This document shows, one piece after another, positions 1-22,249 of a stretch of DNA of 37,878 nucleotides. The stretch covers positions 1 through 37,878 of the forward strand of contig WRFY01000107.1 of the NCBI GenBank assembly GCA_009783445.1, read 5' to 3'. Numbering within the stretch: the stretch's first letter is position 1; every line of letters begins with the position of its first letter. This DNA is from Candidatus Azobacteroides sp. Its GTDB lineage: Bacteria; Bacteroidota; Bacteroidia; Bacteroidales; Azobacteroidaceae. The notes beneath the pieces were generated by a model. It saw only the letters and a list, made by a program, of their open reading frames with translations. It was not told where the DNA came from and did no database searches. Both the position numbers and the translations under genes were made by a program.

Positions 1-60
1 AAGTACAGTCAGGCATTGCGGTTGCTCAAATAATCAGAATAATTTTAAAAAACAAAAAAT

Positions 61-993
61 ATGAAAAGAACGCTCTTATTTTTCGGCATTTTGCTTGTTG
101 CGGGAACAGTCCATGCGCAAGATATTTTAAAGAACTACGGTTGCAACAAGGAAATATTGACATTGAGTAAGGGACGTTACAAGGAAACGTTTATCAATGA
201 AAATGTAATGCAAATTGGTACCGTACTTATCGACACTCGTACAGAGAAAGTGGTTAAGTTTTTGGAGGAAGATACTACTGAAGTAAGCTACAAAGCAGAT
301 GACACAAGCCGGTTTATGACGATTGATCCTGTGGCGGAAAAATATCCGGAGTTATCGCCATACGTCTATTGTAGGAATAATCCGATGAGGTTTGTGAATC
401 CGACGGGAATGATTGTTGAAACAGATGAACTGTCTCAAAACAACATAAAAAACACACTAACAGATCAAGAAGCAAAATATGTAAGATTTAACAACAACGG
501 AGTGCTTGATGCAAAAAGATTAAATAAATCAAAAAGTACTTCTGATAACATGACGGCTTTGAAAACATTGGCTAAGAGTGAACTTGTATATAATTTTCAA
601 GTTACAAAAGAAGACCACGAAGGAAATTCATTTTATGATAAGACAGCCACAGGAGGTAATTTTTATAGAGGCGTTACAGAAATGCCAGGAGCAGAATCAA
701 ATCCATCGCCAGATAACAAAATATATGTACTTGTTGGAGAAGTTTTGAATAAAAAACAGCAAGTAATGACTACTGCACACGAAGGTTTGGGGCATGCCTA
801 TTTTTATGAAATTACACGCAATGTTGAGAAAGCAAGCCATACCTATAAATCTGAAGGTCGTATGGTCTGGGACGAAGAAATCCAAATGAATGTTTTTGAA
901 ACAACAAAAGTTCCCACAAATATTTCTTTAGAAAATCAAATAAATAAAGTTGTAAAACAAGCAGAAAATAATTATGATAAGAAAAACAACTAA
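61..993 (+). CDS. Compact Rhs-tip protein with predicted HExxGH metallopeptidase toxin domain
   Basis: 310 aa. Residues 1-20 form a signal peptide ending in VHAQ. Residues 21-83 are a short N-terminal segment that replaces the usual long Rhs/YD-repeat shell. Residues 84-117 are an Rhs core remnant (RFMTIDPVAEKYPELSPY, then NNPMRFVNPTG), the point after which variable toxin tips start. The tip (118-310) carries HEGLGH at 240-245 and a downstream His260. The motif has three residues between Glu and the second His, as in the HExxGH signature of M49 (dipeptidyl peptidase III) peptidases, so a zinc peptidase toxin is inferred. The tip is paralogous to the one at 1562-2443 (shared NTLT, KYVRF, NG, SPDN and the GHA motif). 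The next gene overlaps by 20 nt, as expected for a toxin/immunity pair. Activity and target are not known. Confidence 0.72.
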   Translation: MKRTLLFFGILLVAGTVHAQDILKNYGCNKEILTLSKGRYKETFINENVMQIGTVLIDTRTEKVVKFLEEDTTEVSYKADDTSRFMTIDPVAEKYPELSPYVYCRNNPMRFVNPTGMIVETDELSQNNIKNTLTDQEAKYVRFNNNGVLDAKRLNKSKSTSDNMTALKTLAKSELVYNFQVTKEDHEGNSFYDKTATGGNFYRGVTEMPGAESNPSPDNKIYVLVGEVLNKKQQVMTTAHEGLGHAYFYEITRNVEKASHTYKSEGRMVWDEEIQMNVFETTKVPTNISLENQINKVVKQAENNYDKKNN

Positions 994-1423
994 AATAATG
1001 CTTATATTGCTATGTTTAACTAATGTTGTTTTTGGACAAATGCAAACGAAAGTAGATACAACATTATGTCATGGTAAAAATATAATTGTCGAATATCCAT
1101 TAATTAATAAAATTGATATAGTTAATTATGAGGAAGGTTATTTCAAAATAATAAGTTGTATTTTAGATACTGCTGTAATAACAATACATTGTGGAAGTAT
1201 GGTAAATTTGCCATTAACAGATTTAACAGACAAAACAATATGCAGTATATTTATATTAGGTAAAGATATTCGTAGTATAAGAGGTTATTATTCGTTAAAT
1301 GGAAAAAAATATTTTAGAGAAGATAATTATTTTAAATATAACATTACCATTACCTATGAGAATGTTGATGAAACAAAATTGACCTATTACGAACACTTTT
1401 TCAATGATATAAAAATACAATAA
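974..1423 (+). CDS. Exported putative immunity protein of cassette 1
   Basis: 149 aa, not recognised as a named family. The first 22 residues are a signal peptide (basic RKTTK, hydrophobic LILLCL, cleavage near VFGQ). I keep the ATG at 974, inside the end of the toxin gene, because the next Met (base 998) would drop the basic n-region. The mature part is small, rich in beta-type residues and Ile/Tyr, with two Cys that could pair in the periplasm. The 20-nt overlap with the preceding Rhs-tip gene implies translational coupling, and by position it is the cognate immunity protein. Its export suggests the toxin is neutralised in the periplasm or at the outer membrane. The immunity role is inferred from context only. 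Confidence 0.6.
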   Translation: MIRKTTKIMLILLCLTNVVFGQMQTKVDTTLCHGKNIIVEYPLINKIDIVNYEEGYFKIISCILDTAVITIHCGSMVNLPLTDLTDKTICSIFILGKDIRSIRGYYSLNGKKYFREDNYFKYNITITYENVDETKLTYYEHFFNDIKIQ

Positions 1424-1561
1424 TTATTCAGTACATACATAAGGATTTTTGTTTAATGTAATATGTCAAAATTTGCTTTAACTCGTCAAAGCTTTTGCCT
1501 TTGGCGGACAAAAAGCAAGCCTCAGTTGGCAAAATTAAGTAAATAAAAGAGTGATAGGCTC

Positions 1562-2443
1562 ATGATCATGCCAAATAATTGCGTAAATTTGTCTTCGTTT
1601 GGAATGAGTTTTGCAGAGTGTTTACTGCCCAGCCTCCAGCCCTACAAATGCAACGGGAAAGAGGTGGATCAAATGAGCGGATTGAATCAGTACAATTACT
1701 TATTCCGTAATTACGATACGACAACCGGGAGGTTTCCGATAATGTATCCGTTGGCAGAAAAAGATTATTCGGCAAGTCCGTATGTTTATTGCGCGAATAA
1801 TCCGGTGAGGTACATTGATCCAGATGGAAGAGATGTTAAACCTGCTGATAACGAAGCTTTAAAGATGATTCAAAATACTCTTACAACTAAAGATATGAAA
1901 TATGTCCGATTTGATGCGAATGGCAATATTGATAAAGACTATCTTAATTCTCATATAAGCGAAAGTGGTAATTATAACGCATTACGAGAATTAGTTAATT
2001 CAGATATTTTGACAGAAGTTTCATTAGCAACTCACTACACATACGTGGATCGTAATGGAAAGCAGCATCCATCAGTAACCATGTCGTATCAAAAACCCGA
2101 TCCTGAATTGAGTGATCCTACAGGAAGTACTCTAAATGGAACTACAACTGGTGAAGGTGGATTAATGGGGCAAACTCTATTGCACGGAAAAGGAGTATAT
2201 GATGTAAATTCACCAGATAATACGATAAGAGTAATAATGAATAGAAAACTCTCTCCAGCAGCAAGGGCTGAAATGTATAGTCATGAAGCAAACGGTCATG
2301 CTCTAATGTACGTTAGAACACGTGATAGGTTACAATCTGGACATATATTTAGTGGTTCAAAAGATATAAATAAACCTTTAGTAGACATGATAATAAAGTC
2401 TAAAATGGAAACTGTTAAAAATATGCAAGAAAGCGGAAAATGA
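1562..2443 (+). CDS. 5'-truncated Rhs core plus HExxGH metallopeptidase tip
   Basis: 293 aa. Residues 13-90 are the terminal part of an Rhs repeat-associated core (FGMSFAECLLPSLQPYKCNG, then NQYNYLFRNYD, then YCANNPVRYIDPDGRD). Such a core normally ends a protein of 1000 aa or more; here an in-frame stop lies at 1544-1546 and no shell precedes it, so this is either a displaced tip cassette or a 5'-deleted gene. There is no signal peptide. Residues 95-293 are the variable tip with HEANGH at 241-246 and His261 about 15 residues on, aligning with HEGLGH/His260 of the 61-993 gene, with which it also shares NTLT, KYVRF and SPDN. It overlaps the next gene by 4 nt (ATGA). It may be expressed only after recombination behind a full-length Rhs gene. 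Confidence 0.62.
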   Translation: MIMPNNCVNLSSFGMSFAECLLPSLQPYKCNGKEVDQMSGLNQYNYLFRNYDTTTGRFPIMYPLAEKDYSASPYVYCANNPVRYIDPDGRDVKPADNEALKMIQNTLTTKDMKYVRFDANGNIDKDYLNSHISESGNYNALRELVNSDILTEVSLATHYTYVDRNGKQHPSVTMSYQKPDPELSDPTGSTLNGTTTGEGGLMGQTLLHGKGVYDVNSPDNTIRVIMNRKLSPAARAEMYSHEANGHALMYVRTRDRLQSGHIFSGSKDINKPLVDMIIKSKMETVKNMQESGK

Positions 2444-2982
2444 AAAAGATAATATTATTCATGCTTTTGTTAATATTTCCACTATTCTGTTTTTCTCAAA
2501 TAAGAGATAGTCTTATTATTAGAGAATATTCACTATGCAATTGTGTGGAAAATTCCAGTGAAATTTTTAGTGTTTTATACGAAATAAATAATAATACTTG
2601 CGATGTATTCTATTTATGGATTGAAAAGGAGATTCATTCGCCAGAACTTGAAAGAATAAATGATTATTTTAAGAAAAATAAGGGGGATGCGAGTTTGTAT
2701 CAAATGGCAATGGAAGTTAATATTTCATATGAATGTCCATCTCTATTTACTACCTTTCTCAAGAAAATCAAGCCACAGGAAACATTTATTATCCAGATTA
2801 TTTCTACGGGAATAATGTCTGAGTGTGAAAAAAAACAGATATATACATATTTAGACACACATGTGGTGATCATGAATGAAAATATATTAACAAAATACAT
2901 TGAAGGATTATCTAACTTTAATCCTCTATTATTTTACAAAAATGATTTTATTACATTGCCTGTAGAGATGATTAACTTTTAG
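2440..2982 (+). CDS. Exported putative immunity protein of cassette 2
   Basis: 180 aa, no recognised family. Residues 1-20 are a clear signal peptide (KK n-region, FMLLLIFPLF core, cleavage after CFSQ). The mature protein has several Cys, including a CxC pair early on (SLCNC), which suggests an oxidised periplasmic protein. Start ATG overlaps the toxin stop (ATGA), so the two are translationally coupled. By position it should neutralise the HEANGH tip. It shows no clear similarity to the immunity candidate at 974-1423, although their toxins are paralogous. The stop is followed after 4 nt by a 32-bp sequence that recurs after the cassette 3 lipoprotein gene. Confidence 0.57.
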   Translation: MKKIILFMLLLIFPLFCFSQIRDSLIIREYSLCNCVENSSEIFSVLYEINNNTCDVFYLWIEKEIHSPELERINDYFKKNKGDASLYQMAMEVNISYECPSLFTTFLKKIKPQETFIIQIISTGIMSECEKKQIYTYLDTHVVIMNENILTKYIEGLSNFNPLLFYKNDFITLPVEMINF

Positions 2983-2986
2983 ACAG

Positions 2987-3018
2987 TTTTGTAAATTTAT
3001 GTTTCGAATGAATTGAAA
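2987..3018 (+). repeat. Cassette-boundary direct repeat, copy 1
   Basis: Matches 4521-4552 at 27 of 32 positions (shared core GTAAATTTAT, TTTCGAAT and TTGAAA). Each copy lies within a few bases of the stop codon of an exported immunity-type gene, so it marks the downstream edge of a toxin/immunity module. Confidence 0.6.
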
Positions 3019-3058
3019 CAGATGAATAGAAGTATCTCCTCTATATAGGCCATAGTCT

Positions 3059-3660
3059 ATAGAAAATAAATCATTTACATTTTACAGAGGTAGTGACAAT
3101 AATGCACAAACAAAACAACAGGGAAAAACATTTATTTAGAAAGACAAAATAAAATAAATGGTAAAAACGTTTCAAAAGACCAATCAAAAGCTGCCGAAAT
3201 GCAGGCAAGTATTGATAATCTCAAAGCTGGAGTTTCTGAATTAACAGCAATGGGCGCTACAAAGGAGCAAGTTTTTACTTATAATAACATCGATGGAAGT
3301 GATGGCACCACAAAGATTGTAGATGGAGTTATTGTAATGAATATAGCTGGTAATGGAAATTTACCTAATGGAGTACATGAGTCATCCCATGGATTTGATA
3401 TTTGGAAATCAGGGATGCTTAAAGATATTGCTGCTTTTTATTCAGGAGAAGCAAAAGCATATGGAAGGCAATTCTCATTTGGAGGTAAATCTGCAATGCC
3501 GCATTCTGAAGGAGGAAACATTAATAGTTTGAAAGATGTAACAATAAATTGGGTTATAGGAATTATAGATTCCAATGGAGATTATATGTACCCGAAACAA
3601 TTATTAGGAAATAAGTACAATAAAGCCTATATAAAATCACTTTTATTTAATACAAAATAA
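3059..3660 (+). pseudogene. Decayed Rhs-type tip with HExxH metallopeptidase motif (cassette 3)
   Basis: The longest ATG-started frame (3199-3660, 153 aa) has HESSH at its residues 60-64 and GEAKAYGRQFSF about 20 residues later, giving a candidate third zinc ligand (Glu84). Coding-like sequence extends further upstream: the same frame is open from 3103 and reads GKNIYLERQNKINGKNVSKD before the ATG. Before that the reading continues in the next frame (3059-3121: ENKSFTFYRGSDNNAQTKQQ), stopped at TAG 3053. The gene therefore lost its Rhs core and took a one-base frameshift near 3103-3122. No promoter, signal peptide or normal start is visible. Either it is a pseudogene or the ATG-started remnant is made as a small cytoplasmic protein. 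The tip differs from those of cassettes 1 and 2. Confidence 0.6.
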
Positions 3661-3661
3661 G

Positions 3662-4519
3662 GTGAAATCGATTAATAGTTTATTATTTTGTTGGTTGTTA
3701 ATGATTGGATTATCTTCATGCAAAACTTCTGCCGATGTGGAAGGAACTTATTTATCTTTGTTCCGAAATAATCCTCATAAATTAAATATTTATACTGCAC
3801 ATAAATTTGTCTTCAGTGCTGATTTTACATTCAATTATTCTTATATTGTAATAGGAGATACAGAAAAATATTCTTCGGGGACATGGGAACAAATAGATAA
3901 AAATACGATTGTACTAAACAGTAATATACAATCTAACGTTCTCCCATTACAAGTAGAAAAAGTTAATAGCGAAGACTCACATATTCAAGTTTGCGAAAAT
4001 TTAGTTATCATTCAAAAAATAAGTAAATATGAATACGAAAATGAAGATTTTTTGGTAACGCCATACATTGATGGAATCAATTATTTGGATTTGCATCCTG
4101 AATTATCGGATGAGCCTTTACAAATAACGAAAAACGATTTTTGTAAATCTATGGGATTAGAGACTGATACAATAAATCTCTCGGAAATAGTAATGACTTC
4201 ACCTCCCATAAAAAGAGGCTCGTATTGTATTTATCCCGAAAAACCATTTGACACTCTTTATTTCAAAATATTAAAACAACCTCGAAAAGTTGAACGAATG
4301 GGACCTCGCTCTTATAAAGAATATTATATTTTAGAAACGGAACATAAAAAATTAACTACGAATGATGGGGATATTGTCAATGTCACGATTACTCTGCTCG
4401 ATTCATTATTTTCATACAGAATATTTGATAATGAAAAAATTAAATTAAGCGGAAATAAACTAATATTTAAAGATAAAGAAGACAACAATAAAAAGAATAA
4501 ACTTTACATTAAAGATTGA
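3662..4519 (+). CDS. Putative lipoprotein, likely immunity protein of cassette 3
   Basis: 285 aa from a GTG one base after the preceding stop. The N-terminus (LLFCWLLMIGLSSCKTS) is a lipoprotein signal with lipobox LSSC, so the mature protein should start at the Cys at about residue 20. The first part of the mature protein (SADVEGTYLS, then SGTWEQIDKNTIVLNSN) resembles the small beta-barrel lipoproteins in which a G-x-Y-x-x motif leads into GTW-type strands; this is only a fold guess. No family is recognised for the rest. Position directly behind a metallopeptidase tip suggests membrane-anchored immunity. Unlike the toxin part, this frame is fully intact, which fits selection on immunity outlasting toxin decay. 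Confidence 0.58.
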   Translation: MKSINSLLFCWLLMIGLSSCKTSADVEGTYLSLFRNNPHKLNIYTAHKFVFSADFTFNYSYIVIGDTEKYSSGTWEQIDKNTIVLNSNIQSNVLPLQVEKVNSEDSHIQVCENLVIIQKISKYEYENEDFLVTPYIDGINYLDLHPELSDEPLQITKNDFCKSMGLETDTINLSEIVMTSPPIKRGSYCIYPEKPFDTLYFKILKQPRKVERMGPRSYKEYYILETEHKKLTTNDGDIVNVTITLLDSLFSYRIFDNEKIKLSGNKLIFKDKEDNNKKNKLYIKD

Positions 4520-4583: not shown

Positions 4584-5651
4584 ATGAAGATATTATTATT
4601 AATTGCAGGACTATTTTGGATCATTTCGCTTTCTGCCCAACCATTGGAAGCATATCAACAATCGTATGATTTTATCCATAAAATGTTGAGAGATGAAATG
4701 CCATTAAGTTTTAAAGACGCTGTTTGGGCAACTGAAAATGCTTATGAAAATGATCGTTTGGATATAAAAGCATGCGATCAGGAAATAGAATTCCTCACAC
4801 AACTCTGCGGCATCATTTCCAACACCGAATTAATCGCCTATACTGGAAAAGATAAAGACGTTGTAACAAAACATGCCGCTCTTTTCAAAACTCTTATGGA
4901 TACTGTATCTTTACCAATTGATTCTACTCATATACTGTTCCATTTGCCTTACACTTACGATTTCGACGACCCGACCGGTCAAAAAGACTGGACAAAAATG
5001 TTTGTATCTAAATTATTGAAAACTGGAAAAGGCAACTGTCATTCTTTACCCTATCTTTACAAAATACTGTCCGACGAATTGGGCATTCCCTGCTATCTTG
5101 CTTTTGCACCCAACCATATCTATATCAAACTATACGCCGAAAATACCGGCTGGTACAATACGGAACTGACCAGCGCTTCCTTCCCGATTGACGCATGGAT
5201 TATCGCTTCCGGCTATGTTGCGATTGACGCTATCCGTAACGGACTATATATGGATACTTTAAGCAATAAACAAGCGGTGGCTAATTGCCTACTCGATTTA
5301 GCGCAAGGTTACCAACATAAATATGGAAAAGAAAATCCGGAATTTGTCATACAATGCTGCAATACGGTTTTAGAATATCATCCGACAAACGTAAACGCTT
5401 TGTTGACGAAAGCCGAAGCGCAAAAACAATATATTCATTCATTGATGAAAACAAAAAATCTGAAAAAGCCGGAAGAACTTTTTTCTGATCCAATGATCAA
5501 AGAGATGTTTTCAGACATGGAATCAACTTATATCCAATTACATAAATGGGGATACCGGCGGATGCCCGAAGAAATGTATCGGCAGTGGATGGGATTGCTT
5601 AAGAATGAGCCAAATGCTTATACAAACCAAAAATTAAAAATCCCGAAATAG
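4584..5651 (+). CDS. Secreted transglutaminase-like protein
   Basis: 355 aa. Residues 1-19 are a signal peptide ending LSAQ. The core has the layout of a transglutaminase/protease-like (papain-fold) domain: GKGNCHSLPYLYKIL (Cys152 at a helix start, followed by a hydrophobic helix), LGIPCYLAF (strand after the helix), APNHIYIKL (His178) and GWYNTE (possible third catalytic position). Residues 225-330 are helical and look TPR-like (FVIQCCNTVLEYHPTNVNAL). It could be an envelope peptidase, amidase or inactive scaffold. It lies behind the three toxin/immunity cassettes but has its own 64-nt upstream gap, so membership of that region is uncertain. Confidence 0.6.
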   Translation: MKILLLIAGLFWIISLSAQPLEAYQQSYDFIHKMLRDEMPLSFKDAVWATENAYENDRLDIKACDQEIEFLTQLCGIISNTELIAYTGKDKDVVTKHAALFKTLMDTVSLPIDSTHILFHLPYTYDFDDPTGQKDWTKMFVSKLLKTGKGNCHSLPYLYKILSDELGIPCYLAFAPNHIYIKLYAENTGWYNTELTSASFPIDAWIIASGYVAIDAIRNGLYMDTLSNKQAVANCLLDLAQGYQHKYGKENPEFVIQCCNTVLEYHPTNVNALLTKAEAQKQYIHSLMKTKNLKKPEELFSDPMIKEMFSDMESTYIQLHKWGYRRMPEEMYRQWMGLLKNEPNAYTNQKLKIPK

Positions 5652-6416: not shown

Positions 6417-7637
6417 TTATTCGTAACGCAATGCATTGATTGGATCTAAGGAAGCCGCTTTTTTGGCCGGATACCACCCAAAGAAGATGCCGGTTGCCGC
6501 ACAGACCAAAAACGAAACTCCTACAGCCGGAACGCTGACGATAAAAGGCCACTTCAATCCTGCAGAAGCGCCATACGAAAGAAGCAAACCGAGCAAAATG
6601 CCGATGATTCCGCCTATCAGACTTAAGATAATGCTTTCGCACAGAAATTGCAGCAGAATATCTTTGTTCTTGGCTCCGATGGACATACGCAAACCTATTT
6701 CTTTTGTTCGCTCTGTTACAGTTACATACATAATATTCATGATGCCGATTCCGCCGACGAGCAAAGAAATGGAAGCGATAGCCGACAATAAGACTGTGAG
6801 GAAACCGCTAACCGAATTCATCATATCCAGCATTTCTTTTTGAGTGCGAACGTCAAAATCGTTTGCCTGGCCAGGTTTTAATCTGTGGGTGTTGTGTAGA
6901 ATCGTTTCGATTTCCTGCGTCGCCAATGTAGCTGTTTCTTCCGACGATGCCGAAGCCATGATCATGTGAATATACGTAATAGCCAATATGCGCTTTTGCA
7001 CGGTTGTGTAAGGCGCAATCACCACATCATCCATATCTTGTCCCATTTGGTTTTGACCTTTGCTTGCCAATACGCCAATGATTTTAAGCGGTATTTTGCT
7101 GAAACGAATCGTTTGCCCCAATGGATTTTCCCCATTGGGAAAAAGGTTGTCTACCACGGTTTTTCCGACCATGCAAACTTTGGCGGAATTTCGTACATCC
7201 TGTTCAGTAAAAGAAATACCTGAAGCTATTTCGTATTTGCGAATGGAAATCAACTCCGAATTACCCCCTTGCATGCTGCCTGGCCAGTTGTTGGAGCCGC
7301 TAACCAACTGTCCGCTGGCATTTACCAAAGGAGAAATGGAGCTTACGTATTGTGCTTTTGCACGAATAGCTTCCACATCTTTATCCGTGAGCGTCTGTAC
7401 ATTGGCCGAACCAATATTTACTCCCCCCTGCCTTTGGCTTGTACGCATGACCATAATCAGGTTGGTTCCCATGGAAGAAATTTGATTGTTAATGCTTTTC
7501 GAGGAACTTTGTCCCAAACTAACCATAGCGATTACCGACGAAATGCCGATAATGATGCCCAACATGGTGAGGAATGCCCGCGTTTTATTGCGAAGCAAGG
7601 CTTTATAAGCTATTTTAAATAAATTGAGAATGCTCAT
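6417..7637 (-). CDS. MacB/FtsX-type ABC transporter permease
   Basis: 406 aa. One N-terminal membrane helix (about residues 20-42, TMLGIIIGISSVIAMVSLGQ), a large periplasmic MacB_PCD-like domain (45-270), and three C-terminal helices forming the FtsX domain (SLLVGGIGIMNIMYVTVTER, IILSLIGGIIGILLGLLLSY, GVSFLVCAATGIFFGWYPA), ending in the conserved KAASLDPINALRYE. Unlike E. coli MacB, the ATPase is a separate gene directly upstream (3-nt gap). With the MacA-like and TolC-like proteins it would form a mechanotransmission pump that pushes periplasmic substrates through the outer-membrane channel. The substrate cannot be told from sequence. Confidence 0.92.
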   Translation of the reverse strand: MSILNLFKIAYKALLRNKTRAFLTMLGIIIGISSVIAMVSLGQSSSKSINNQISSMGTNLIMVMRTSQRQGGVNIGSANVQTLTDKDVEAIRAKAQYVSSISPLVNASGQLVSGSNNWPGSMQGGNSELISIRKYEIASGISFTEQDVRNSAKVCMVGKTVVDNLFPNGENPLGQTIRFSKIPLKIIGVLASKGQNQMGQDMDDVVIAPYTTVQKRILAITYIHMIMASASSEETATLATQEIETILHNTHRLKPGQANDFDVRTQKEMLDMMNSVSGFLTVLLSAIASISLLVGGIGIMNIMYVTVTERTKEIGLRMSIGAKNKDILLQFLCESIILSLIGGIIGILLGLLLSYGASAGLKWPFIVSVPAVGVSFLVCAATGIFFGWYPAKKAASLDPINALRYE

Positions 7638-7640
7638 ATT

Positions 7641-8390
7641 TTAGTAATCATCGTTAACAGGCAAAACGTCCAAACTTGCTTTTGCAGATTGCGTTTGAAC
7701 TGGAGCGTCTTTCACGATATGTCCGTCGCGCAACTGAATGGTACGGTTCGTAAAGACGGCAATGTCCGGCTCGTGCGTTACAAAAGCGATGGTTTTTCCT
7801 TCGCTGTTTAATTGTTGAAATAAATTCATAATTTCGTAAGAAGTGCGGGTATCCAAGTTTCCAGTCGCTTCGTCAGCTAACAAGATAACCGGATCGTTTA
7901 CCAACGCTCGCGCAATCGCTACTCTCTGCTGCTGTCCGCCTGAAAGTTGGTTGGGCAAGTGCATCATTCGGTCGTGCAAACCAACTTGCTCCAGGGCGCG
8001 GATGGATCTTTCCCTCCGTTCTTTGGTGGAAACGGTATTGTTGTAGAGCAAAGGCAATTCTACGTTTTCTAAAGCCGAAGTTCGGGGAAGAAGGTTATAG
8101 GATTGAAAAACAAATCCGATTTTACGGTTGCGCAACGTGGAAAGTTCGTCTTTACTGCGTTGACTGACCGAAATTCCGTCGATAAAATATTCTCCCGAAG
8201 AAGGACGGTCTAAACAACCCATGATGTTCAGTAAAGTAGATTTTCCGCTTCCGCTCGCCCCCATGATGCTCACAAATTCTCCTGAAGAAATCGTGAACGA
8301 GATGCCTTTTAAAGCATGTACTTCTTCGCTTCCCACTTGGAAAATACGGCGAAGCTGTTCGATTTTGATAATATCGTTCATTTTTCCCAT
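7641..8390 (-). CDS. MacB-type ABC transporter ATP-binding subunit
   Basis: 249 aa from the ATG at 8390, which lies 4 nt after the membrane-fusion gene stop. A longer frame from 8468 exists but would overlap that gene by 74 nt and adds a non-homologous N-terminus. ATG 8381 is also possible. The product has Walker A (GASGSGKST, about 44-52), a Q-loop ([10 protein letters not shown]), the ABC signature (LSGGQQQR), Walker B ([13 protein letters not shown]) and the H-loop (AFVTHEPD), as in the LolD/MacB/FtsE subgroup. It powers the permease encoded 3 nt downstream. Confidence 0.94.
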
Positions 8391-8394
8391 CTCT

Positions 8395-9600
8395 TTACCT
8401 TCTGCGCCGCTGCGGCATAAGAGGATTACTAACAGGCTTTTCCGGTGTGTCCTGTTTTCCGACGGCAACCGATAAAACGACGGTATCGCCCGGTTTCAAG
8501 CCTTCTTTTACAATTGTATTTACATCGTCGGACAATCCGACTTTTATTTCTCGTCGAACAAGACTGTCGGACATTTGCAACCAAACGGTTTTCCTTGTGC
8601 TGTCATGTTTTTCTCCTTCTGCGTTTTGTTCTTGTGTGTGGGGATGAGGGGAGCGAGGTTTCATTTTGAAATGAGCGAACACCTCTTGCGTAGGAACGAA
8701 ATGCAATGCTTCCGCCGGAATAGCGGGTCCGGTTTCTACCTGCGTGACAATCGAAACATTGGCTGTCATTCCCGGATACAGTTTTTCATCGGGATTAGGC
8801 GCTTCGATAATTACGGTATAAGTAACCACATTGTTTGTCACTGTCGGCTGCAAACGGATTTGGTTAACCACGCCGTTGAACGTATCGTCGTTATAAGCGT
8901 CTACTGTGAAGCGGACTTGCTGTCCCAGTTGCACGCGACCTATATCGGCCTCATCCACATCAGCTTCCACTTGCATTTTTGTCAAATCATTGGCAATTGT
9001 AAATAACGTAGGCGTGTTGAAAGAAGCGGCAACCGTTTGCCCTTGATCCACAGAACGATCGAGGATGATGCCGTCGATGGGAGAATAAATTTCTGCGTAA
9101 GACAAGTTTACTTCTGCCTGCTGCAGATTGGCTTTTGCATCGGCCAGAGAGGATTGCGCCTGCGCCAAACTATTGACAGCATCTTCGTAAGAAACGTCGG
9201 TAGCGGCTTTCACATCATGAAGCTGTTTTATTCGGTCGAAGTTTTGCTGGGAATATTTCAGGTTGCTTTCGGCGCTTACCTGAGTTGCTTTTGCTTGCGT
9301 GACCCGTTCTATAAGCGTCGATTTGTCGATTTCCGCTAATAACTGCCCTTTTTTTACCAGCGAATTATAATCGACAAAAATTTTCTCTATCACTCCCGAA
9401 ACTTGCGTACCCACTTCGACTTTGTCCACCGGCTGAACATATCCCGTAGCGGTTACCGTGTTTTCGACGGTTTCGTCCTTTACCTCCGCCGTATTGAATT
9501 GAAGCGCAGCGCCTTCTCTCCTTTTTATTATAAAGAAAAGAATGAGAAGGATTACGACGGCTGCGGCAATGCCGATAATAATTAATTTTTTCTTCTTCAT
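8395..9600 (-). CDS. MacA/HlyD-type periplasmic membrane-fusion protein
   Basis: 401 aa. A Lys-rich start and one membrane helix (5-26) anchor it to the inner membrane. Then come the first half of the lipoyl domain (VEVGTQVSGVIEKIFV), a coiled-coil hairpin (about 90-170), the second lipoyl half (IYSPIDGIILDRSVDQGQTV), a beta-barrel (200-290) and a membrane-proximal domain. Residues about 312-337 are an unusual polar, His/Pro-rich insert (KPRSPHPHTQEQNAEGEKHD) inside the membrane-proximal domain. The gene is 4 nt from both neighbours. It should link the permease to the TolC-like channel. Confidence 0.93.
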   Translation of the reverse strand: MKKKKLIIIGIAAAVVILLILFFIIKRREGAALQFNTAEVKDETVENTVTATGYVQPVDKVEVGTQVSGVIEKIFVDYNSLVKKGQLLAEIDKSTLIERVTQAKATQVSAESNLKYSQQNFDRIKQLHDVKAATDVSYEDAVNSLAQAQSSLADAKANLQQAEVNLSYAEIYSPIDGIILDRSVDQGQTVAASFNTPTLFTIANDLTKMQVEADVDEADIGRVQLGQQVRFTVDAYNDDTFNGVVNQIRLQPTVTNNVVTYTVIIEAPNPDEKLYPGMTANVSIVTQVETGPAIPAEALHFVPTQEVFAHFKMKPRSPHPHTQEQNAEGEKHDSTRKTVWLQMSDSLVRREIKVGLSDDVNTIVKEGLKPGDTVVLSVAVGKQDTPEKPVSNPLMPQRRRR

Positions 9601-9604
9601 ATTT

Positions 9605-10903
9605 TTACATTGTTATTTGAATACCCATGTATACATCTAAAATTTTGCGTTTCAGGATGAATTCGTATTTACTTTGAATATAATCGCTTAATGCGCTTAT
9701 GTAATTGTTTTGCTGTTGTAATAGATCAACGACCGTAATCGAACCGACATTGAATTGCGCTCGGTAAACATCAAAGGTTTTTGAATAGGCAATTTGCCTG
9801 ATATTCGTTGTCTGATATTTATTGTAAGCCGATACCACCGATTGATAATCGGTAACTACCGTTTGTTGAATATCCAATTCGGTTTGTTTTCTGTCCAATT
9901 CGGCCTGTTTCAAAGCAATCCGGCTTTGCGTCACTTTCGATTTAGTTCGGCTATTATCGTAAATAGGAATGCTAAGCGACAATCCGATTTGTTGATTCAG
10001 ATAATCGGAAAGTTGCGTACCGAAATTGCTGGAACCTGTGTGGCCGGTTCCGAGACTTCCGTGCAGGCTAAGCGTAGGCAAATAATTGGCTTGCGACATT
10101 TTAAGACTTACTTTGGCAATATCTATATTGTATTGACTAATTTTTAAGTCCGGCAGCGTTTGGTTTGTTTGGTCTAAAACCTCGTTCAGAGAAGGCAAAA
10201 GACTCATCCGTTGGATGGAGGTCGTATCCGGAGAGATAATCTGAAGATTATCCATTACCGGCATGGAGAGTAAACTCTTTAAGGTAAGCAGACTATTGTC
10301 GCGGGAAATTTGGGTGTCGAGAACATTGTATTGGTCGTTAGCATATTGAGCTTCAAGCAATAAATAGTCGCTTTCCAATATACTTCCGTAGCGGAATTGC
10401 TCTTTGCCTTGATTCAATTGCTCTTCGCTGGCTTTAACCACAGCGGCCTGATATTTAAGCAGTTCTTCGTCGCCCAAGACCGTTAAAAAAGCTTGCAAAA
10501 TCTGAATGGTCAAGTTATTCTGGTATTGGGAAGTTTGATAAGTCGACTGCACTTTTCGTAATTTGTTCTGTTCGATCGTATTGGAAATATTTCCGCCCTC
10601 GTACAAAGTCATATTGGCATTCAAACTGTAGTTGCCGCTCAACGCAGCATCAGAGCCTTTGCTATGGTTGAGGTTCTCTCCCACGGAAGCGCTCAGATTG
10701 GGAAGGCGTTCCATTTTGGATTGCTGATAAGCGTCTTCACTGGCTTCTTCCGTCAATTTCATGGATTGAAGATTGTAATTGTTTCCAAAAGCATAGTTCA
10801 AACAATCTTCCAATGTAAAATGATAATCAGCAACCGTTGTCTCCTGCGCTTTTACTGCTCCTGCCGTCATCACCAATACAAAACCTAAAATAATTTTTCT
10901 CAT
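9605..10903 (-). CDS. TolC-like outer-membrane efflux channel
   Basis: 432 aa with a signal peptide (MRKIILGFVLVMTAGAVKAQ). Two internally repeated OEP halves are visible: long amphipathic helices rich in Gln/Ala/Leu (LTIQILQAFLTVLGDEELL, then RIALKQAELDRKQTELDIQQ) and strand segments between them (LPNLSASVGENLNH, LPTLSLHGSLGTG). This is the pattern of the trimeric alpha-barrel/beta-barrel exit ducts. It is the first gene of the four-gene efflux operon and lies about 20 nt downstream of the expected start of transcription from a matched promoter. Confidence 0.93.
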   Translation of the reverse strand: MRKIILGFVLVMTAGAVKAQETTVADYHFTLEDCLNYAFGNNYNLQSMKLTEEASEDAYQQSKMERLPNLSASVGENLNHSKGSDAALSGNYSLNANMTLYEGGNISNTIEQNKLRKVQSTYQTSQYQNNLTIQILQAFLTVLGDEELLKYQAAVVKASEEQLNQGKEQFRYGSILESDYLLLEAQYANDQYNVLDTQISRDNSLLTLKSLLSMPVMDNLQIISPDTTSIQRMSLLPSLNEVLDQTNQTLPDLKISQYNIDIAKVSLKMSQANYLPTLSLHGSLGTGHTGSSNFGTQLSDYLNQQIGLSLSIPIYDNSRTKSKVTQSRIALKQAELDRKQTELDIQQTVVTDYQSVVSAYNKYQTTNIRQIAYSKTFDVYRAQFNVGSITVVDLLQQQNNYISALSDYIQSKYEFILKRKILDVYMGIQITM

Positions 10904-14978: not shown

Positions 14979-15548
14979 TCACTGCGCGACTTCGTGATTC
15001 TCTGTTTCTGGAGTTTCCGTTTTCGAAGCTTTTACTATTTCTTCTGCAATTTGGGCATTTTCACCTTCCTGCGCTTTGGCAACAGCAGGAGCAGCAGGCG
15101 TTGCCTGGACAGACGACTTGCCGGAACCTCTCCGTGTTGAGCGGCGGGTTCTTCCGCTTTTAACGGATTCGTTCCCTTTCAACATCAATTCGTTATAATC
15201 GACCAATTCAATAAAGCACATGGAAGCATTATCTCCCAAGCGATTGCCGATTTTTATAATACGAGTGTAACCGCCCGGACGGTCGCCAATTTTCTGAGAA
15301 ATCTCCTTGAACAATTCCGTAACCGCATATTTATCATGCAAGGATTGAAAAACCAGACGTCTCGAATGAGTTGTATCGTTTTTCGATTTCGTAATAATCG
15401 GCTCCACGTATTTACGAAGTTCTTTGGCTTTAGCCAGAGTTGTAAATATCCTTTTATGTTTGATCAACGAAACAGCCATGTTGGAAAGCATGGCTGCCCG
15501 GTGAGAATAGGTACGCCCCAAATGATTGATTTTATCGTTATGTCTCAT
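14979..15548 (-). CDS. rplQ: 50S ribosomal protein L17
   Basis: 189 aa. The first 115 or so residues are canonical L17 ([20 protein letters not shown], then [13 protein letters not shown], then [19 protein letters not shown]). Residues about 128-189 are a low-complexity Arg/Ser- then Ala/Glu-rich tail absent from the 127-aa E. coli protein but usual in Bacteroidota. Last gene of the supercluster, 20 nt after rpoA. L17 binds 23S rRNA near the exit tunnel. Confidence 0.96.
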
Positions 15549-15568
15549 CGTTAATTTTCTAAAATTTT

Positions 15569-16564
15569 CTAATTTTCTTTATCTAATTTATATTTTGAAA
15601 TATCCATACCAAAATTCAAATTCAATTTGTCGAGCAACTCGTCTAATTCGGTCAAAGACTTCTTGCCGAAATTTCTGAATTTCAACAAATCGTTCTTTTG
15701 ATACCTGACAAGTTCTCCCAACGTTTCTACATCCGCCGCTTTCAAACAGTTTAGGGCACGGACAGAAAGATCCATATCGGACAACTTGGATTTCAGCAAT
15801 TGACGCATGTGCAATACTTCTTCATCGAATTCTTCATTCGTCTCGTTGTTAGTTGGTTCTAAATGAATTTTTTCGTCGGAAAACAACATGAAATGATGAA
15901 TCAAAATACGAGCCGCTTCTTTCAACGCTTCTTTTGGATGAATAGAACCATCGGTCATTATTTCGATCGTAAGCTTTTCGTAGTCCGTTTTCTGTTCTAC
16001 ACGAAAAGGCTCCACCACATATTTCACGTTTACAATAGGCGTAAAAATAGAATCTATGGCGACTAAATTAATCTCATCATCTTCGGTGCGATTTTCTTCG
16101 GCAGGTATGTATCCTCTTCCTTTACTGATATTTAATTCCATCTTAAAACTTGCGGTTTTATCTAAATGACAGATAATAAAATCTGGATTTAATACCTCAA
16201 AGCCTGCTAATTGTTTTCCAATATCGCCTGCTCTAAATTCTTCCACGCCAGCAACGCCAATTGTTACTTTTTCATTCTCGATGTCTTTCACCGTTTGTTT
16301 GAATCGCACCTGTTTAAGCCGAAGAATGATATTGGTCACATCTTCCAAAACGCCCGGAATGGAGGCAAATTCATTGTTAACGCCATCAATTCGAATCGAA
16401 GTGATCGCATAACCTTCCAAAGAAGACAAAAGGATACGGCGAAGAGAATTACCTATGGTAATGCCATAACCCGGTTCCAATGGACGAAATTCGAATTTTC
16501 CATATTTGTTATCCGCACCCAACATCAATACTCTGTCAGGTTTTTGAAATGCTAATATCGCCAT
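15569..16564 (-). CDS. rpoA: RNA polymerase alpha subunit
   Basis: 331 aa. The N-terminal assembly domain has [20 protein letters not shown] (dimer interface) and a Bacteroidota-type insert ([16 protein letters not shown]). The C-terminal domain (about 250-325) carries the helix-hairpin-helix [20 protein letters not shown] used for UP-element and activator contacts. It has the alpha-operon position between rpsD and rplQ, coupling polymerase and ribosome synthesis. Confidence 0.98.
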
Positions 16565-16574
16565 AAAAATTTGT

Positions 16575-17180
16575 TTATTTAGAATATAATTCTACAATTA
16601 ATTGCTCTTTAATATTTTCAGGAATATCTGCCCGTTCCGGAATATGCAAATATTTAGCGCTCAAGGAAGCCTGATCGTATTCGATCCATGGATACTTGCT
16701 GTGATTTATGCCTGAAACACTATCAAGAATTACTTCGAGGGATTTGGCTTTTTCCCGTACGCCCACTATTTGTCCCGGTTTCACCGAATAGGAAGGAATA
16801 TTTACCACCTTACCGTCCACAACAATGTGACAATGCGAAACCAACTGACGAGCGCCTGCCCTTGTCTTTGCCAATCCCATACGATAAACAATATTATCTA
16901 AACGAGATTCCAGAAATTGGAGAAGCACTTCGCCCGTAATACCCTTTGCGCGGGAAGCTTTTTCAAATAAATTACGGAACTGTTTTTCCAATACTCCGTA
17001 AGTATATTTTGCTTTTTGTTTTTCGCGCAATTGAATGCCGTATTCCGAAGTTTTCTTTTTTCTTCCATTCCCGTGTTGTCCCGGAGGATAATTTTTTTTA
17101 CTTAGAACTTTATCCGGTCCGAAAATAGGTTCGCCGAATTTGCGTGCTATCTTTGTTTTTGGTCCTATATATCTTGCCAT
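16575..17180 (-). CDS. rpsD: 30S ribosomal protein S4
   Basis: 201 aa. Binds 16S rRNA early in assembly; in other bacteria it represses the alpha operon. The N-terminal part ([20 protein letters not shown]) has no Cys, so this is the zinc-free form. The S4 domain ([20 protein letters not shown], then [12 protein letters not shown]) is intact. 10 nt before rpoA. Confidence 0.97.
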
Positions 17181-17199
17181 TTTCGTAATTTAAAAATAA

Positions 17200-17589
17200 T
17201 TAAACTCTTCTTCTTTTAGGAGGACGGCAACCATTGTGTGGAAGCGGCGTAACGTCGATAATTTCCGTTACTTCAATCCCTGCGCCATGCACTGTACGAA
17301 TGGCGGATTCACGGCCATTACCCGGACCTTTCACATAAGCTTTTACTTTCCTTAAGCCGAGATCATAAGCCACTTTGGCGCAATCTTGCGCCGCCATTTG
17401 CGCGGCATAAGGAGTATTTTTTTTAGAACTTCTGAATCCCATTTTACCCGCCGACGACCAAGATATTACTTGTCCTTCACTATTTGTAATCGTAATAATA
17501 ATGTTGTTAAATGAAGAGTGAACATGCAATTGACCGTTTGCATCGACTTTTACCACTCTTTTTTTAGCTACTACTGCTTTCTTTGCCAT
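17200..17589 (-). CDS. rpsK: 30S ribosomal protein S11
   Basis: 129 aa, normal length. Platform protein next to the mRNA exit. Signature [14 protein letters not shown] near the N-terminus, [20 protein letters not shown] in the middle and the conserved C-terminus ([18 protein letters not shown]). The N-terminal Lys/Val-rich [14 protein letters not shown] is the usual rRNA-binding extension. Follows rpsM by 14 nt. Confidence 0.97.
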
Positions 17590-17603
17590 AATTCCATTAT
17601 TTC

Positions 17604-17984
17604 TTATTTCGTTGCTTTTTTCTTATTCGCAACTGTTTTCTTTTTACCCTTCCGAGTTCGGGCATTATTCTTGGTACTTTGACCTCTCACGGGTAATCCG
17701 ATACGATGACGTACTCCACGATAACTGCCGATGTCCATCAAACGTTTGATATTCAATTGAATCTCAGAACGAAGATCCCCTTCCACCTTAAAATTGTGAC
17801 TAATTACTTCGCGTACTGCCGCCGCTTGGTCATCGGTCCAATCTTTTACTTTAATATCTCTGTCCACTCCTGCTTTTATCAGGATTTTGTTAGCTGAACT
17901 GCGACCAATGCCGAAAATATACGTCAGTGCAATTTCGCCTCTTTTATTTTGAGGTAAATCTACCCCTACTATTCTTATAGCCAT
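17604..17984 (-). CDS. rpsM: 30S ribosomal protein S13
   Basis: 126 aa. Head protein that contacts the 50S subunit and P-site tRNA. Marks: [31 protein letters not shown] (helix-two-turn-helix) and [20 protein letters not shown] with a basic C-terminal tail that reaches the decoding region. Starts 29 nt after rpmJ. Confidence 0.97.
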
Positions 17985-18013
17985 TTTTTAAAAGTTTAAC
18001 AAAAATAATAAAT

Positions 18014-18130
18014 TTATCCCTGACGTTGTTTGAATTTCGGATTTTTCTTATCAATCACATACAGACGTCCTTTCCTCCTCACGATTTTCGAATCGGGAGT
18101 ACGCTTTTTTATCGAAGCTCTTACTTTCAT
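18014..18130 (-). CDS. rpmJ: 50S ribosomal protein L36, zinc-free form
   Basis: 38 aa, found by direct translation because it is very short: [20 protein letters not shown] onward, ending NPKFKQRQG. It has none of the Cys/His zinc ligands of the C+ form, so it is the C- paralogue. The conserved MKVRAS start and KQRQG end settle the identity. Placed between infA and rpsM, as in other Bacteroidales. A gap of about 97 nt separates it from infA. Confidence 0.93.
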
Positions 18131-18227
18131 ATTGTTTCTTTTTTTAATAAACAAGTTAACGGTAAAGCAAAGTACATGTTTAACAAGATTTTTCTCGTTT
18201 ATTCATTTCCTTCGTATTTGCTTATAT

Positions 18228-18446
18228 TTATTTATATCTGAATGAAATCCGACCCTTGGATAAATCATAGGGCGACATCTCTACTTTCACTTTATCGCCC
18301 GGAAGAATTTTGATGTAGTGCATCCGCATCTTTCCCGATATGTGAGCCGTGATTTCGTGTCCGTTTTCCAATTCTACCCGAAACATTGCATTGGACAATG
18401 CTTCTACGATGATTCCATCTTGTTCTATTGCCGACTGTTTAGCCAT
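18228..18446 (-). CDS. infA: Translation initiation factor IF-1
   Basis: 72 aa, exact family length. A single S1/OB-fold domain that binds the ribosomal A site during initiation. Marks: [39 protein letters not shown] and [15 protein letters not shown]. Starts 45 nt after map. Confidence 0.97.
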
Positions 18447-18491
18447 ATTTTTGTTTTTCTAACTCTCTTCCTCTATTTGAAAAATTCTCCT

Positions 18492-19289
18492 TTAGTTAGA
18501 AGAGATCGAGAGAGGGGGTTTATTTATAACCTGATCTATCAAATCAAACGTGGATAAAATATCCGCTTTTCCCGGACGAATAGCCACCGTATGCTCAAAA
18601 TGGGCAGAAGGTTTGCGATCGGCTGTACGCACGGTCCAACCATCTTTTTCAAACTTCACATTTTTTGTACCCATATTAATCATCGGTTCTATCGCTATAC
18701 ACATTCCGTTTTTCAACAATGAGCCGTAGCTTTTCTTTCCATAATTTGGAACTTCGGGTTCTTCGTGCATGTTTTTTCCGATTCCGTGTCCAACTAACTC
18801 CCTGACCACGCCGTAACCTTTGCTTTCGCAATACTTCTGAATCGCATGTCCGATATCCCCAATTCGTTTTCCTTCTACAGCATAGCTGATTCCGAGATAC
18901 AAAGCGTCTTTCGTTGTTTGCAAAAGTCTTTTTACTTCTGGAGCCACTTCGCCCACCTCAAAAGTGTAGGCGGAGTCGCCGCAATATCCATTCAACTTGA
19001 CGCCGCAATCTACCGAAACGATATCGCCTTCTTTCAAGCGATAGTCGTTTGGAATGCCATGCACTACATTTTCATTGACCGAAATACAGAGCGCATTAGG
19101 AAAACCGTTATATCCCTTGAATAAAGGAATGGCGTTCTGATCACGGATAAACTCTTCTCCTATTTTATCCAGATGAAGCGTGCTAACTCCCGGAACAATA
19201 TTTTTGGCTATTTCAGCCAAAGTAGAGCCTACCAAATGGTTAGCCGCCCGCATATATTCTATTTCTTCGTCTGTTTTTAGATAAATCAT
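18492..19289 (-). CDS. map: Type I methionine aminopeptidase
   Basis: 265 aa. Removes the initiator Met from nascent chains at the ribosome exit. All five metal ligands are present: Asp94 (VSVDCGV), Asp105 (YCGDSAYTF), His168 (ELVGHGIGK), Glu201 (IEPMIN) and Glu232 (FEHTVAI); His77 (ENVVHGIPN) lines the active site. There is no N-terminal zinc-finger extension. Starts 4 nt after secY, consistent with co-translation. Confidence 0.97.
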   Translation of the reverse strand: MIYLKTDEEIEYMRAANHLVGSTLAEIAKNIVPGVSTLHLDKIGEEFIRDQNAIPLFKGYNGFPNALCISVNENVVHGIPNDYRLKEGDIVSVDCGVKLNGYCGDSAYTFEVGEVAPEVKRLLQTTKDALYLGISYAVEGKRIGDIGHAIQKYCESKGYGVVRELVGHGIGKNMHEEPEVPNYGKKSYGSLLKNGMCIAIEPMINMGTKNVKFEKDGWTVRTADRKPSAHFEHTVAIRPGKADILSTFDLIDQVINKPPLSISSN

Positions 19290-19293
19290 TTAT

Positions 19294-20634
19294 TTAATAA
19301 GCATTGCCTTGCCGTCCTTTAATCCTTCCCGATTTCAACAATCCATCGTAATGCCGCATCAACAAATGACTTTCCACTTGTTGCAAGGTATCCAGCACCA
19401 CCCCCACTAAAATCAGCAAAGAAGTTCCTCCAAAGAAGGAAGCAAATCCCTGTTGAATTCCAAACACATTGGCAAAGGCTGGCATAATAGCAACTAAAGA
19501 TAGAAAGATAGCGCCGGGCAAAGTGATTCTCGACATAATTTCGTCAATATATTCCGCCGTTTTCCTTCCTGGTTTGATGCCGGGTATAAATCCGTTATTC
19601 CGTTTTAGATCCTCCGCCATTTGTTTCGGATTGATTGTAATAGCCGTATAAAAATAGGTAAACATGATAATCAATACCACGTCTACGAAATTATACCAAA
19701 AACCATGAATATCCGTTAACGGAGCAAATATTTTCATAGCCCAACTGTCGGGATTGGAACCAAAGCCCATCAAAGATACGGGAATAAACATAATAGCCTG
19801 TGCAAAGATGATCGGCATCACATTCGCGGCGTTCACTTTCAAAGGTATATATTGTCTTGCTCCTCCGTATTGCCGGTTTCCAATCATTTGTTTGGCATAT
19901 TGAACCGGAATCCGTCTTGTTCCTTGCACTAAAAGGATAGCGCCTGCAATTACCGCCAACAGCAACAATAATTCCAACAAGAACATGACTAAACCTCCCG
20001 ACACTTCGCTGACTCTCGATACAAGTTCTTGAGACAAGGCTCTCGGCAAACGCGCTAAGATACCCACCATAATGATGAACGAAACGCCGTTTCCAATTCC
20101 CTTATCGGTAATCCTTTCCCCCAGCCAAAGAACAAACATCGATCCGGCAGTAAGGATAATGGTCGAACTGATACTAAACCACACGCCTCCCGGAATGCCT
20201 GCTCCTACATGCCGCATTTGAACATTCAGGTTAACCAAATAAGTTGGCGCTTGAAACAACAAAATAAGAACAGTCAGATAACGAGTGTATTGATTGATCT
20301 TCCGTCTTCCGCTTTCGCCTTCCCGTTGCAATTTTTGAAAATAGGGAACTGCAATGGCTAACAATTGAATTACAATGGATGCCGAGATATAGGGCATGAT
20401 TCCCAAAGCGACAATAGAAGCATTGGAGAAAGCGCCTCCCGAAAACATGTCCAGCAACGACATCAATCCGCCTGCTGTTTGTCCCTGCAAAGCAGACAAG
20501 CTTTTAGGATCAATGCCCGGAAGCGTAATAACTGATAAAAAGCGATAAATTGTAATCAATAGGAGAGTTAAGAGAATTCGGCTTTTCAAATCCTCAATCT
20601 TCCATATATTCTTTATTGTTTGAAATGCTCTCAT
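19294..20634 (-). CDS. secY: Protein translocase subunit SecY
   Basis: 446 aa with ten predicted membrane helices. Central pore subunit of the SecYEG channel. Marks: plug-region sequence (LLDMFSGGAFSNASIVALGI), QLLAIAVPYFQKLQREGESG, GIGNGVSFIIMVGI, NPKQMAEDLKRNNGFIPGIK and the C-terminal RHYDGLLKSGRIKGRQ. Starts 7 nt after rplO. Confidence 0.98.
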   Translation of the reverse strand: MRAFQTIKNIWKIEDLKSRILLTLLLITIYRFLSVITLPGIDPKSLSALQGQTAGGLMSLLDMFSGGAFSNASIVALGIMPYISASIVIQLLAIAVPYFQKLQREGESGRRKINQYTRYLTVLILLFQAPTYLVNLNVQMRHVGAGIPGGVWFSISSTIILTAGSMFVLWLGERITDKGIGNGVSFIIMVGILARLPRALSQELVSRVSEVSGGLVMFLLELLLLLAVIAGAILLVQGTRRIPVQYAKQMIGNRQYGGARQYIPLKVNAANVMPIIFAQAIMFIPVSLMGFGSNPDSWAMKIFAPLTDIHGFWYNFVDVVLIIMFTYFYTAITINPKQMAEDLKRNNGFIPGIKPGRKTAEYIDEIMSRITLPGAIFLSLVAIMPAFANVFGIQQGFASFFGGTSLLILVGVVLDTLQQVESHLLMRHYDGLLKSGRIKGRQGNAY

Positions 20635-20641
20635 TATCGTA

Positions 20642-21091
20642 TTAGCGTTTTATGGTGGTTGTTCCTCCTGCTTTGGTGATCGCCTCTTCTGCTGTTTTAG
20701 AAAAAGCGTGAGCTGTAACTTCCAAAGCAGAAGTCAGCGTGCCTTTTGCAAGAATTTTAACCAAATGCTTGGACGATACAAAACCTGCATCTACCAATTC
20801 ATTCACCCCTATTTTTGTTAAGTGTTGAGAATCAGCCAAATGTTGAAGTGTATCGAGATTAATAGCCTTGTATTCAACACGATTGATATTTTTGAAACCA
20901 TATTTAGGCAAACGTCTTTGAATTGGCATCTGTCCCCCTTCAAATCCGATCTTTCGGGAATAGCCCGATCGTGATTTTTGTCCTTTATGACCTCTCGTAG
21001 AAGTTCCTCCCAATCCCGAACCAGTCCCGCGTCCAATTCGTTTGCGAGGTTTTATCGAACCTTTAGCAGGTTTTAAATTTGATAAATTCAT
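20642..21091 (-). CDS. rplO: 50S ribosomal protein L15
   Basis: 149 aa. Late-assembly 50S protein. Marks: [20 protein letters not shown], the Gly/Arg-rich [40 protein letters not shown] and a C-terminal globular part with [19 protein letters not shown]. The gap to rpmD (21092-21172) holds most of a perfect 28-bp inverted repeat. Confidence 0.97.
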
Positions 21092-21105
21092 ATTTTTTTT
21101 ATTAT

Positions 21106-21181
21106 GAATTATAGATTATGAATTATGAATTATAAATTTATACTGTGCAATAGATAATTCATAATTCATAATCTATAATTC
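21106..21181. repeat. Perfect 28-bp inverted repeat, AT-rich family copy 1, overlapping the rpmD 3' end
   Basis: Left arm 21106-21133 and right arm 21154-21181 are exact reverse complements over 28 bp around a 20-nt loop. Core unit TATGAATTATGAATTATA. Related, less perfect copies lie at 23279-23319, 24528-24568, 28178-28202 and 33039-33113. The right arm contains the last two sense codons and the stop of rpmD. Confidence 0.85.
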
Positions 21182-21349: not shown

Positions 21350-21364
21350 ACATTTTCCTCCCGA

Positions 21365-21880: not shown

Positions 21881-21885
21881 TTTTA

Positions 21886-22230: not shown

Positions 22231-22249
22231 AATAATTCCCGCTTAATAA

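Follow-up and report, generated by a model that had tools for sequence, protein, structure and literature searches.

Putative short Rhs-related toxins and their likely exported partner proteins at the start of a Candidatus Azobacteroides contig

The Locus and the Proposed System

The window analysed here is the whole stretch of 37,878 nucleotides of contig WRFY01000107.1 from Candidatus Azobacteroides sp. (assembly GCA_009783445.1). It begins with three tandem gene pairs, in each of which a gene ending in a putative toxin tip is followed by a small gene for an exported protein. This raises the question of whether the pairs are leftovers of full-length Rhs toxins, as the initial annotation proposed, or parts of a toxin system in its own right. 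We consider it likely that these genes form a single locus of a separate class of polymorphic toxin systems in Bacteroidota, with two related exported proteins, named in this analysis MTT-S (about 355 residues) and MTT-L (about 450 residues), as processing or partner proteins. The toxin class and its partnership with MTT, taken alone, are proposed with high confidence, and the assignment of MTT as a processing enzyme is tentative, falling a little short of an even chance.

The following scheme is suggested for the system. A short toxin would be exported by Sec via its signal peptide, behind which stand a conserved leader, an Rhs core stub with two DP motifs and an exchangeable tip, followed by an immunity gene. 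One or two dedicated exported partners, MTT-L and MTT-S (transglutaminase-like and TPR proteins with a Cys-His-Glu triad), would bind the leader or stub and process the toxin, either by cleavage that releases the tip or by covalent attachment. The tips would act against bacteria, and the immunity proteins would guard the producer in the compartment where the tip acts. In the window, genes 1 and 2 are regarded as the mounted pair, and genes 3/4 and 5/6 as parked spares.

Linkage of the Toxin Class with MTT

Two profiles were searched, namely A1 (leader plus core stub) and A3 (MTT-S). Profile A1 recovered 15 loci in other genomes, which range from Dysgonomonas and Prolixibacteraceae to Aquimarina and one Sphingobacteriales metagenome-assembled genome (MAG). 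The best-matching named relatives are Dysgonamonadaceae MAGs, and class members were found in Aquimarina algiphila (L082) and Dysgonomonas alginatilytica (L085). An MTT gene or a piece of one was present in 14 of these 15 loci, the exception being L084. The order MTT-L, toxin, immunity gene, MTT-S was observed in L073 and L074 and, if the orphan pairs are set aside, in the window; the other layouts were MTT-L, MTT-S, toxin, immunity and toxin, immunity, MTT-S, MTT-L.

At E 1e-10 or better, profile A3 matched 8 genomes out of 392 sampled across the phylum and 21 out of 393 sampled across the order; both counts include the window's own genome. Outside that genome, a gene with an Rhs core stub was adjacent in 29 of 34 MTT-anchored loci, from which the duplicates L137 (of L080) and L156 (of L087) had been left out. 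Leader and MTT occurred together in 12 of the 393 order-sample genomes (leader in 15, MTT in 21), giving a Fisher p of 5e-15, or 8e-14 without the window's own genome, with relatedness between genomes ignored. Among the 21 MTT-positive order genomes, nine gave no leader match at the threshold of that profile; seven of the nine still have a stub gene next to MTT, scoring as low as 23 and 32 bits in two (L161, L162), so the leaders there appear to have diverged or to be missing.

Moreover, MTT, leader, stub and tip are fused in a single open reading frame (ORF) in two genomes from different families of the order (L155:614-2668, - strand, 684 residues; L157:682-2757, - strand, 691 residues). Within 6 kb, to the extent fetched, the only groups found by BLAST in at least four of 49 loci were MTT/toxin and one group of five ORFs, in which two of the three displayed members look like ATPases of the ATP-binding cassette (ABC) type. 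MTT and toxin were merged into one BLAST cluster, as the fusions would cause.

Organization of the Window Genes

The relevant features of the window are as follows.

1..33, + strand: end of the MTT-L gene (last 10 codons and stop, by translation), coding for a long exported transglutaminase-TPR protein; the contig starts at position 1, inside this gene
61..993, + strand: gene 1, putative mini-Rhs toxin, one DP motif of its stub altered; signal peptide at about 61-120, leader at about 130-294, Rhs core stub at about 301-408, HEGLGH tip at 409-990
974..1423, + strand: gene 2, for a signal-peptide-bearing protein, putatively the immunity partner of gene 1
1562..2443, + strand: gene 3, orphan with a fragment of a longer Rhs core and a HEANGH tip, without signal peptide or leader
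2440..2982, + strand: gene 4, for a putative immunity protein that starts with a signal peptide; a relative of the immunity gene on contig C76
3199..3660, + strand: gene 5, orphan HESSH tip without a core match
3662..4519, + strand: gene 6, putative immunity lipoprotein with a GTG start, related to a lipoprotein of contig C82
4584..5651, + strand: gene 7, MTT-S, an exported transglutaminase-like and TPR protein with Cys152, His178 and Glu194

The six ORFs of the initial annotation were found at their positions, all on one strand (+), and its description of three tandem pairs agrees with our data. Genes 1 and 2 overlap by 20 bases and genes 3 and 4 by 4 bases, and genes 5 and 6 are separated by 1 base; genes 2 and 4 have an N-terminal stretch resembling a signal peptide, and gene 6 has a lipobox, such signals being called throughout by simple scripted rules rather than by a trained predictor. 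Absent from that annotation were two parts of the same system, the end of another gene at 1-33 and the gene at 4584-5651.

The Rhs core differs from pair to pair. Gene 1 combines a signal peptide with the end of the Rhs core only (TIGR03696 positions 41-76), scoring 30.2 bits, slightly below the cut-off of 32.5, and 32.6 bits when its in-frame neighbours are included. Gene 3 covers TIGR03696 positions 13-75 (49.8 bits) and has no signal peptide. Gene 5 had no TIGR03696 match; its frame is open for about 30 codons upstream of the present ATG, without a core there. Genes 1, 3 and 5 matched no Pfam family up to E 1 and no RHS repeat, and thus lack the RHS/YD repeats that define a full-length Rhs shell. 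A PADLOC search of the seven window proteins gave no match up to E 1.

A metallopeptidase-type motif is present in all three tips, as the initial annotation had it, but HExxH in the strict sense occurs only in gene 5 (HESSH); genes 1 (HEGLGH) and 3 (HEANGH) carry HExxGH, which is one residue longer. HExxGH is a motif of M49 peptidases. Genes 1 and 3 have tips that are related to each other (29% identity).

Beyond gene 7, genes resembling an efflux system (ABC permease, ABC ATPase, membrane fusion protein and outer membrane channel) were recognised by eye at 6417-10903, and clusters of ribosomal protein genes at 14979-33528. These clusters are adjoined by a gene for an exported protein at 33752-36301, which we presume may be a C10-type peptidase.

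MTT Proteins

The putative catalytic residues are almost invariant among 76 MTT sequences (ungapped counts: Cys 73/73, His 74/74, Glu 74/75). A structure model of MTT-S resembles menin over residues 22-335 of 355, with the Cys-His-Glu set kept. In sequence comparison, Transglut_core2 matched 15 of 20 MTT members at a cut-off of E 10 (best 8.5e-5), and the window MTT-S matched Transglut_core with E 0.0016 and 19.1 bits, short of the 23 bits set as curated cut-off. The menin family PF05053 gave no sequence match, and the three matches of MTT in the PDB (E 0.23 to 0.55) were taken as chance.

It is possible, rather than probable, that MTT is not a peptidase and functions as a scaffold or surface cross-linker, either holding the toxin by its leader or transglutaminating it onto the surface. 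Menin itself holds partner peptides. We are similarly reserved about a more specific proposal, in which cysteine enzymes with a menin fold would recognise the leader together with the stub and either cleave the toxin or attach it there, thereby taking the place of the complete Rhs shell; such a maturation or delivery pathway would be undescribed.

Stubs, Tips and Putative Immunity Genes

The stubs of the class keep both DP motifs (first Asp in 60 of 60 ungapped positions, second Asp in 63 of 64). According to PMC8636562, the region of C-terminal cleavage in a full-length Rhs protein is marked by a pair of DP motifs. If the stub is cleaved by the Rhs mechanism, gene 1, in which one motif is altered, may escape cleavage; if MTT cleaves, the motif may not matter.

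Among 43 toxins, the tips were unrelated (BLAST, E 1e-3) in 76 of 81 pairs whose leader and core were at least 60% identical, and related in five. As in polymorphic toxin systems, the proteins thus combine a constant N-terminal part with exchangeable C-terminal tips. In 64 stub-bearing genes, which include partial genes and those of the window's own genome, the tip motifs were HExxH (14), HExxGH (5), JAMM-like HxHP (7), caspase-like (4), papain-like (3 + 3) and HNH-like (1). A Pfam scan of 58 tips, in which six of the 64 were left out (five partial ones and the second L159 copy), assigned toxin families at E 0.01 or better to a minority, namely Toxin-JAB1, Ntox21, Ntox33, Ntox23, Ntox44, Tox-MPTase2/3, Peptidase_M91, TseH-like and Hydrolase_2. 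Peptidase-like motifs occur in all three window tips and in many tips elsewhere in the class; a devotion to peptidases is nevertheless not supported for the class, in which Ntox21, Ntox33, GIY-YIG-like and cell wall hydrolase tips occur as well.

The initial annotation had counted tips that always occur without an adjacent small exported gene as evidence against its reading. A same-strand ORF of at least 55 residues, starting -60 to +150 bases from the toxin end, follows 57 of the 64 stub-bearing genes, two of these ORFs being tip pieces (L010, L139). The seven others are L011, L149 and the second toxin of L108, which are partial or at contig ends; L077, where a small gene overlaps the toxin by more than 60 bases; and L148, L150 and L152, where the rule found none. 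By way of observation, four related putative immunity lipoproteins stand in tandem after one toxin at L081:1294-3832, forming a small polyimmunity run.

The export signal of the neighbour gene follows the tip type. Next to metallopeptidase-, JAMM- and wall-hydrolase-like tips, all 25 neighbours showed an export or membrane signal at the N terminus in a looser count that includes membrane anchors, and 24 of 25 did so under a stricter signal rule, which misses L138. Left out of this test were the partial genes L010, second L139 and second L108 and the toxins without a found neighbour. For nuclease-like tips the neighbour carried such a signal in 0 of 5 cases under either rule. These five, however, were selected by hand, on the basis of Pfam hits and a single motif, at a point when the neighbours were already known, and L087 and L147 among them are near-identical; the contrast is therefore suggestive and is not a blind test. 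This match between neighbour export and tip type would fit immunity proteins sited where the toxin acts.

Orphan Modules and Related Contigs

Relatives of both orphan pairs were found elsewhere in the genome. The tip of gene 3 is 45% identical to that of C76, which is mounted behind a signal peptide, full leader and stub, and gene 4 is 23% identical to the C76 immunity gene. For the second orphan pair the relatives belong to a broken copy on C82: a tip piece that shares 47% identity with gene 5 over 87 residues, and a lipoprotein that shares 54% with gene 6. The pairing goes beyond chance, as each orphan pair has a matching pair of homologues elsewhere in the genome and the gene 1 tip is a relative of the gene 3 tip. 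Since the relatives of the orphan tips are mounted elsewhere, the window can be read as one mounted and two parked pairs, and the data support genes 3/4 and 5/6 as putative spare tip/immunity modules placed between the mounted pair and MTT-S. The notion of a reservoir in the initial annotation is consequently retained for genes 3-6, and gene 1 is not seen as a relic.

The opposite view, that gene 1 and its neighbours are decaying and now functionless remnants of full-length Rhs toxins, is regarded as improbable. It can draw on shortened or broken copies on C82, C48 and C83 of the same genome and on the DP motif altered in each of the stubs of genes 1 and 3. C82 itself is decayed, consisting of an MTT-L end, a toxin gene split into two ORFs and scarcely more than flank past MTT-S. 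However, genes 1-7 are all open, the architecture of gene 1 is kept as open ORFs in other families, and gene 1 is a member of a conserved small class found in other genomes. In addition, the ratio of nonsynonymous to synonymous substitution rates (dN/dS) was about 0.14 for MTT-S and 0.19 for leader plus core between the window and C76, and about 0.35 for gene 6 against C82; these are pairwise estimates from an experimental module, and the gene 3 tip pair was saturated.

A full-length Rhs gene had been expected upstream of the window. In fact, bases 1-33 are the end of an MTT gene, and the contig ends there, which limits any upstream check; when the genome was searched for a contig that continues upstream of base 1, none came to light. 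The first 60 bases of the window and of C76 (L009:1-60) are identical, and bases 1-33 also resemble the end of the C82 MTT-L fragment (L010:5244-5549). Given that the contig starts inside the MTT-L gene and C76 begins identically, the assembly probably broke within this repeated gene. The search for a full-length Rhs gene with the core of gene 3 gave seven matches in the genome, including gene 3 itself, the rest being stubs or contig-edge pieces. Long genes of the Rhs type do exist in the same genome, on C91 and C102 (L038:1981-10990 and L039:2815-9533), but they reach the contig ends, where their tips are cut off.

Export Route, Targets and Weight of the Evidence

It was also considered that the toxins might be substrates of type IX secretion, MTT being incidental, which we find quite unlikely. 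This route has been proposed for the TANFOR toxins of the phylum in the accessible part of PMC7073777, and SprA is encoded in 21 of 21 MTT-positive genomes of the order sample. SprA is found, however, in 370 of the 393 genomes of that sample, so its presence in MTT genomes is uninformative, and the linkage to MTT speaks against the proposal. Furthermore, the signal domain for type IX secretion is expected at the C terminus, the place taken up by the tip. Action on protist or animal hosts instead of bacteria is very unlikely: the Dysgonamonadaceae relatives, which presumably come from insect or termite gut, and the many peptidase and JAMM motifs could be cited for it, but the small ORF after 57 of 64 toxin genes (two being tip pieces), the agreement between neighbour export and tip type expected for immunity proteins, and the class member in A. 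algiphila, a marine bacterium, argue against it.

Several observations weigh against the interpretation of the region as a toxin locus with dedicated MTT partners. Five of the 34 MTT loci had no reachable stub gene (L146, L163, L164 and L165 lie at or near contig ends, and L151 is decayed), and two of the 29 linked loci have weak stub scores (L161, 23 bits; L162, 32 bits). Three of the 15 leader-positive genomes (G495, G576, G692) gave no MTT match, none being present on their fetched contigs. The MTT profile was seeded from leader-anchored loci, and MTT outside toxin loci may be under-sampled. The second DP motif is altered in gene 1 (301-408), the sole exception among 64 stubs, and the first in gene 3; processing of these two copies may therefore differ from that of the rest. 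The predicted structure of gene 1 is poor (predicted local distance difference test score, pLDDT, of 48) and was not used for the fold of leader or tip. No recognised motif was found in 27 of the 64 tips, and for other or unassigned tips the neighbour was exported in 21 of 25 cases, or 12 of 25 under the stricter rule; the hand-picked nuclease-like set with its near-identical pair belongs here as well.

In the literature searched, with preprints and most subscription papers lying outside its scope, no account of the gene set or of the toxin-MTT partnership was found. General work on polymorphic toxins and, in the accessible parts of the papers, TANFOR toxins (PMC7073777) and inactive transglutaminase domains (PMC3482391) were found instead. 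If the partnership holds, it would be a compact and testable answer to how Rhs-type tips are used without a shell. Leader and MTT would then serve together as a marker pair in the search for further antibacterial toxins in this phylum, which many guts harbour in abundance, and MTT might represent the menin fold in bacteria, with the active site intact. Should the menin-fold proposal be true, the fold of menin, a scaffold protein of eukaryotes, would recur in a toxin-handling bacterial enzyme that has kept its catalytic residues.

Comparison with Known Systems

Among bacterial transglutaminase-like proteins, LapG, unlike MTT, has no TPR; it is a cysteine protease whose substrate is an adhesin and not a toxin. 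In comparison with menin (PF05053), MTT is bacterial and exported and keeps the catalytic Cys. In the accessible text of PMC10318531, menin is called solely eukaryotic; the human protein lacks the catalytic Cys, and some other members are said to keep it.

The MafA/MafB system of Neisseria, as outlined in the accessible part of PMC3482391, is similar in having a constant leader after the signal peptide and a conserved exported partner beside a polymorphic toxin. MafA is described there as a lipoprotein restricted to Neisseria, whereas the leader and partner reported here belong to other families and are spread across a phylum. The TANFOR toxins of Bacteroidetes are also Sec-exported polymorphic toxins of the same phylum (PMC7073777, as far as accessible). 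They are large proteins with a TANFOR domain, unlike the window toxins, and that domain (TIGR02542) was not among the NCBIfam matches of the seven window proteins up to E 1.

A transglutaminase fold tied to exported Rhs-type toxins has been reported by Zhang et al. 2012 (PMC3482391), who describe, in the part accessible, inactive transglutaminase domains in RHS polymorphic toxins. There the domain forms part of an RHS-repeat protein, placed after its signal peptide, and its catalytic residues are lost. MTT, in contrast, is mostly encoded by a separate gene with TPR (fused in L155 and L157), keeps Cys-His-Glu and has a shell-less toxin as its putative partner.

Finally, the class resembles the Rhs polymorphic toxins (TIGR03696; PMC8636562, in its accessible part) in the exchangeable tip after a core end with two DP motifs, in the putative immunity gene downstream and in the orphan tip/immunity modules. 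Gene 1 differs from them in having no RHS repeat match and only about 33 core residues, and the class as a whole differs in that a predicted Sec signal and a new leader stand in place of the shell, together with dedicated MTT partners.

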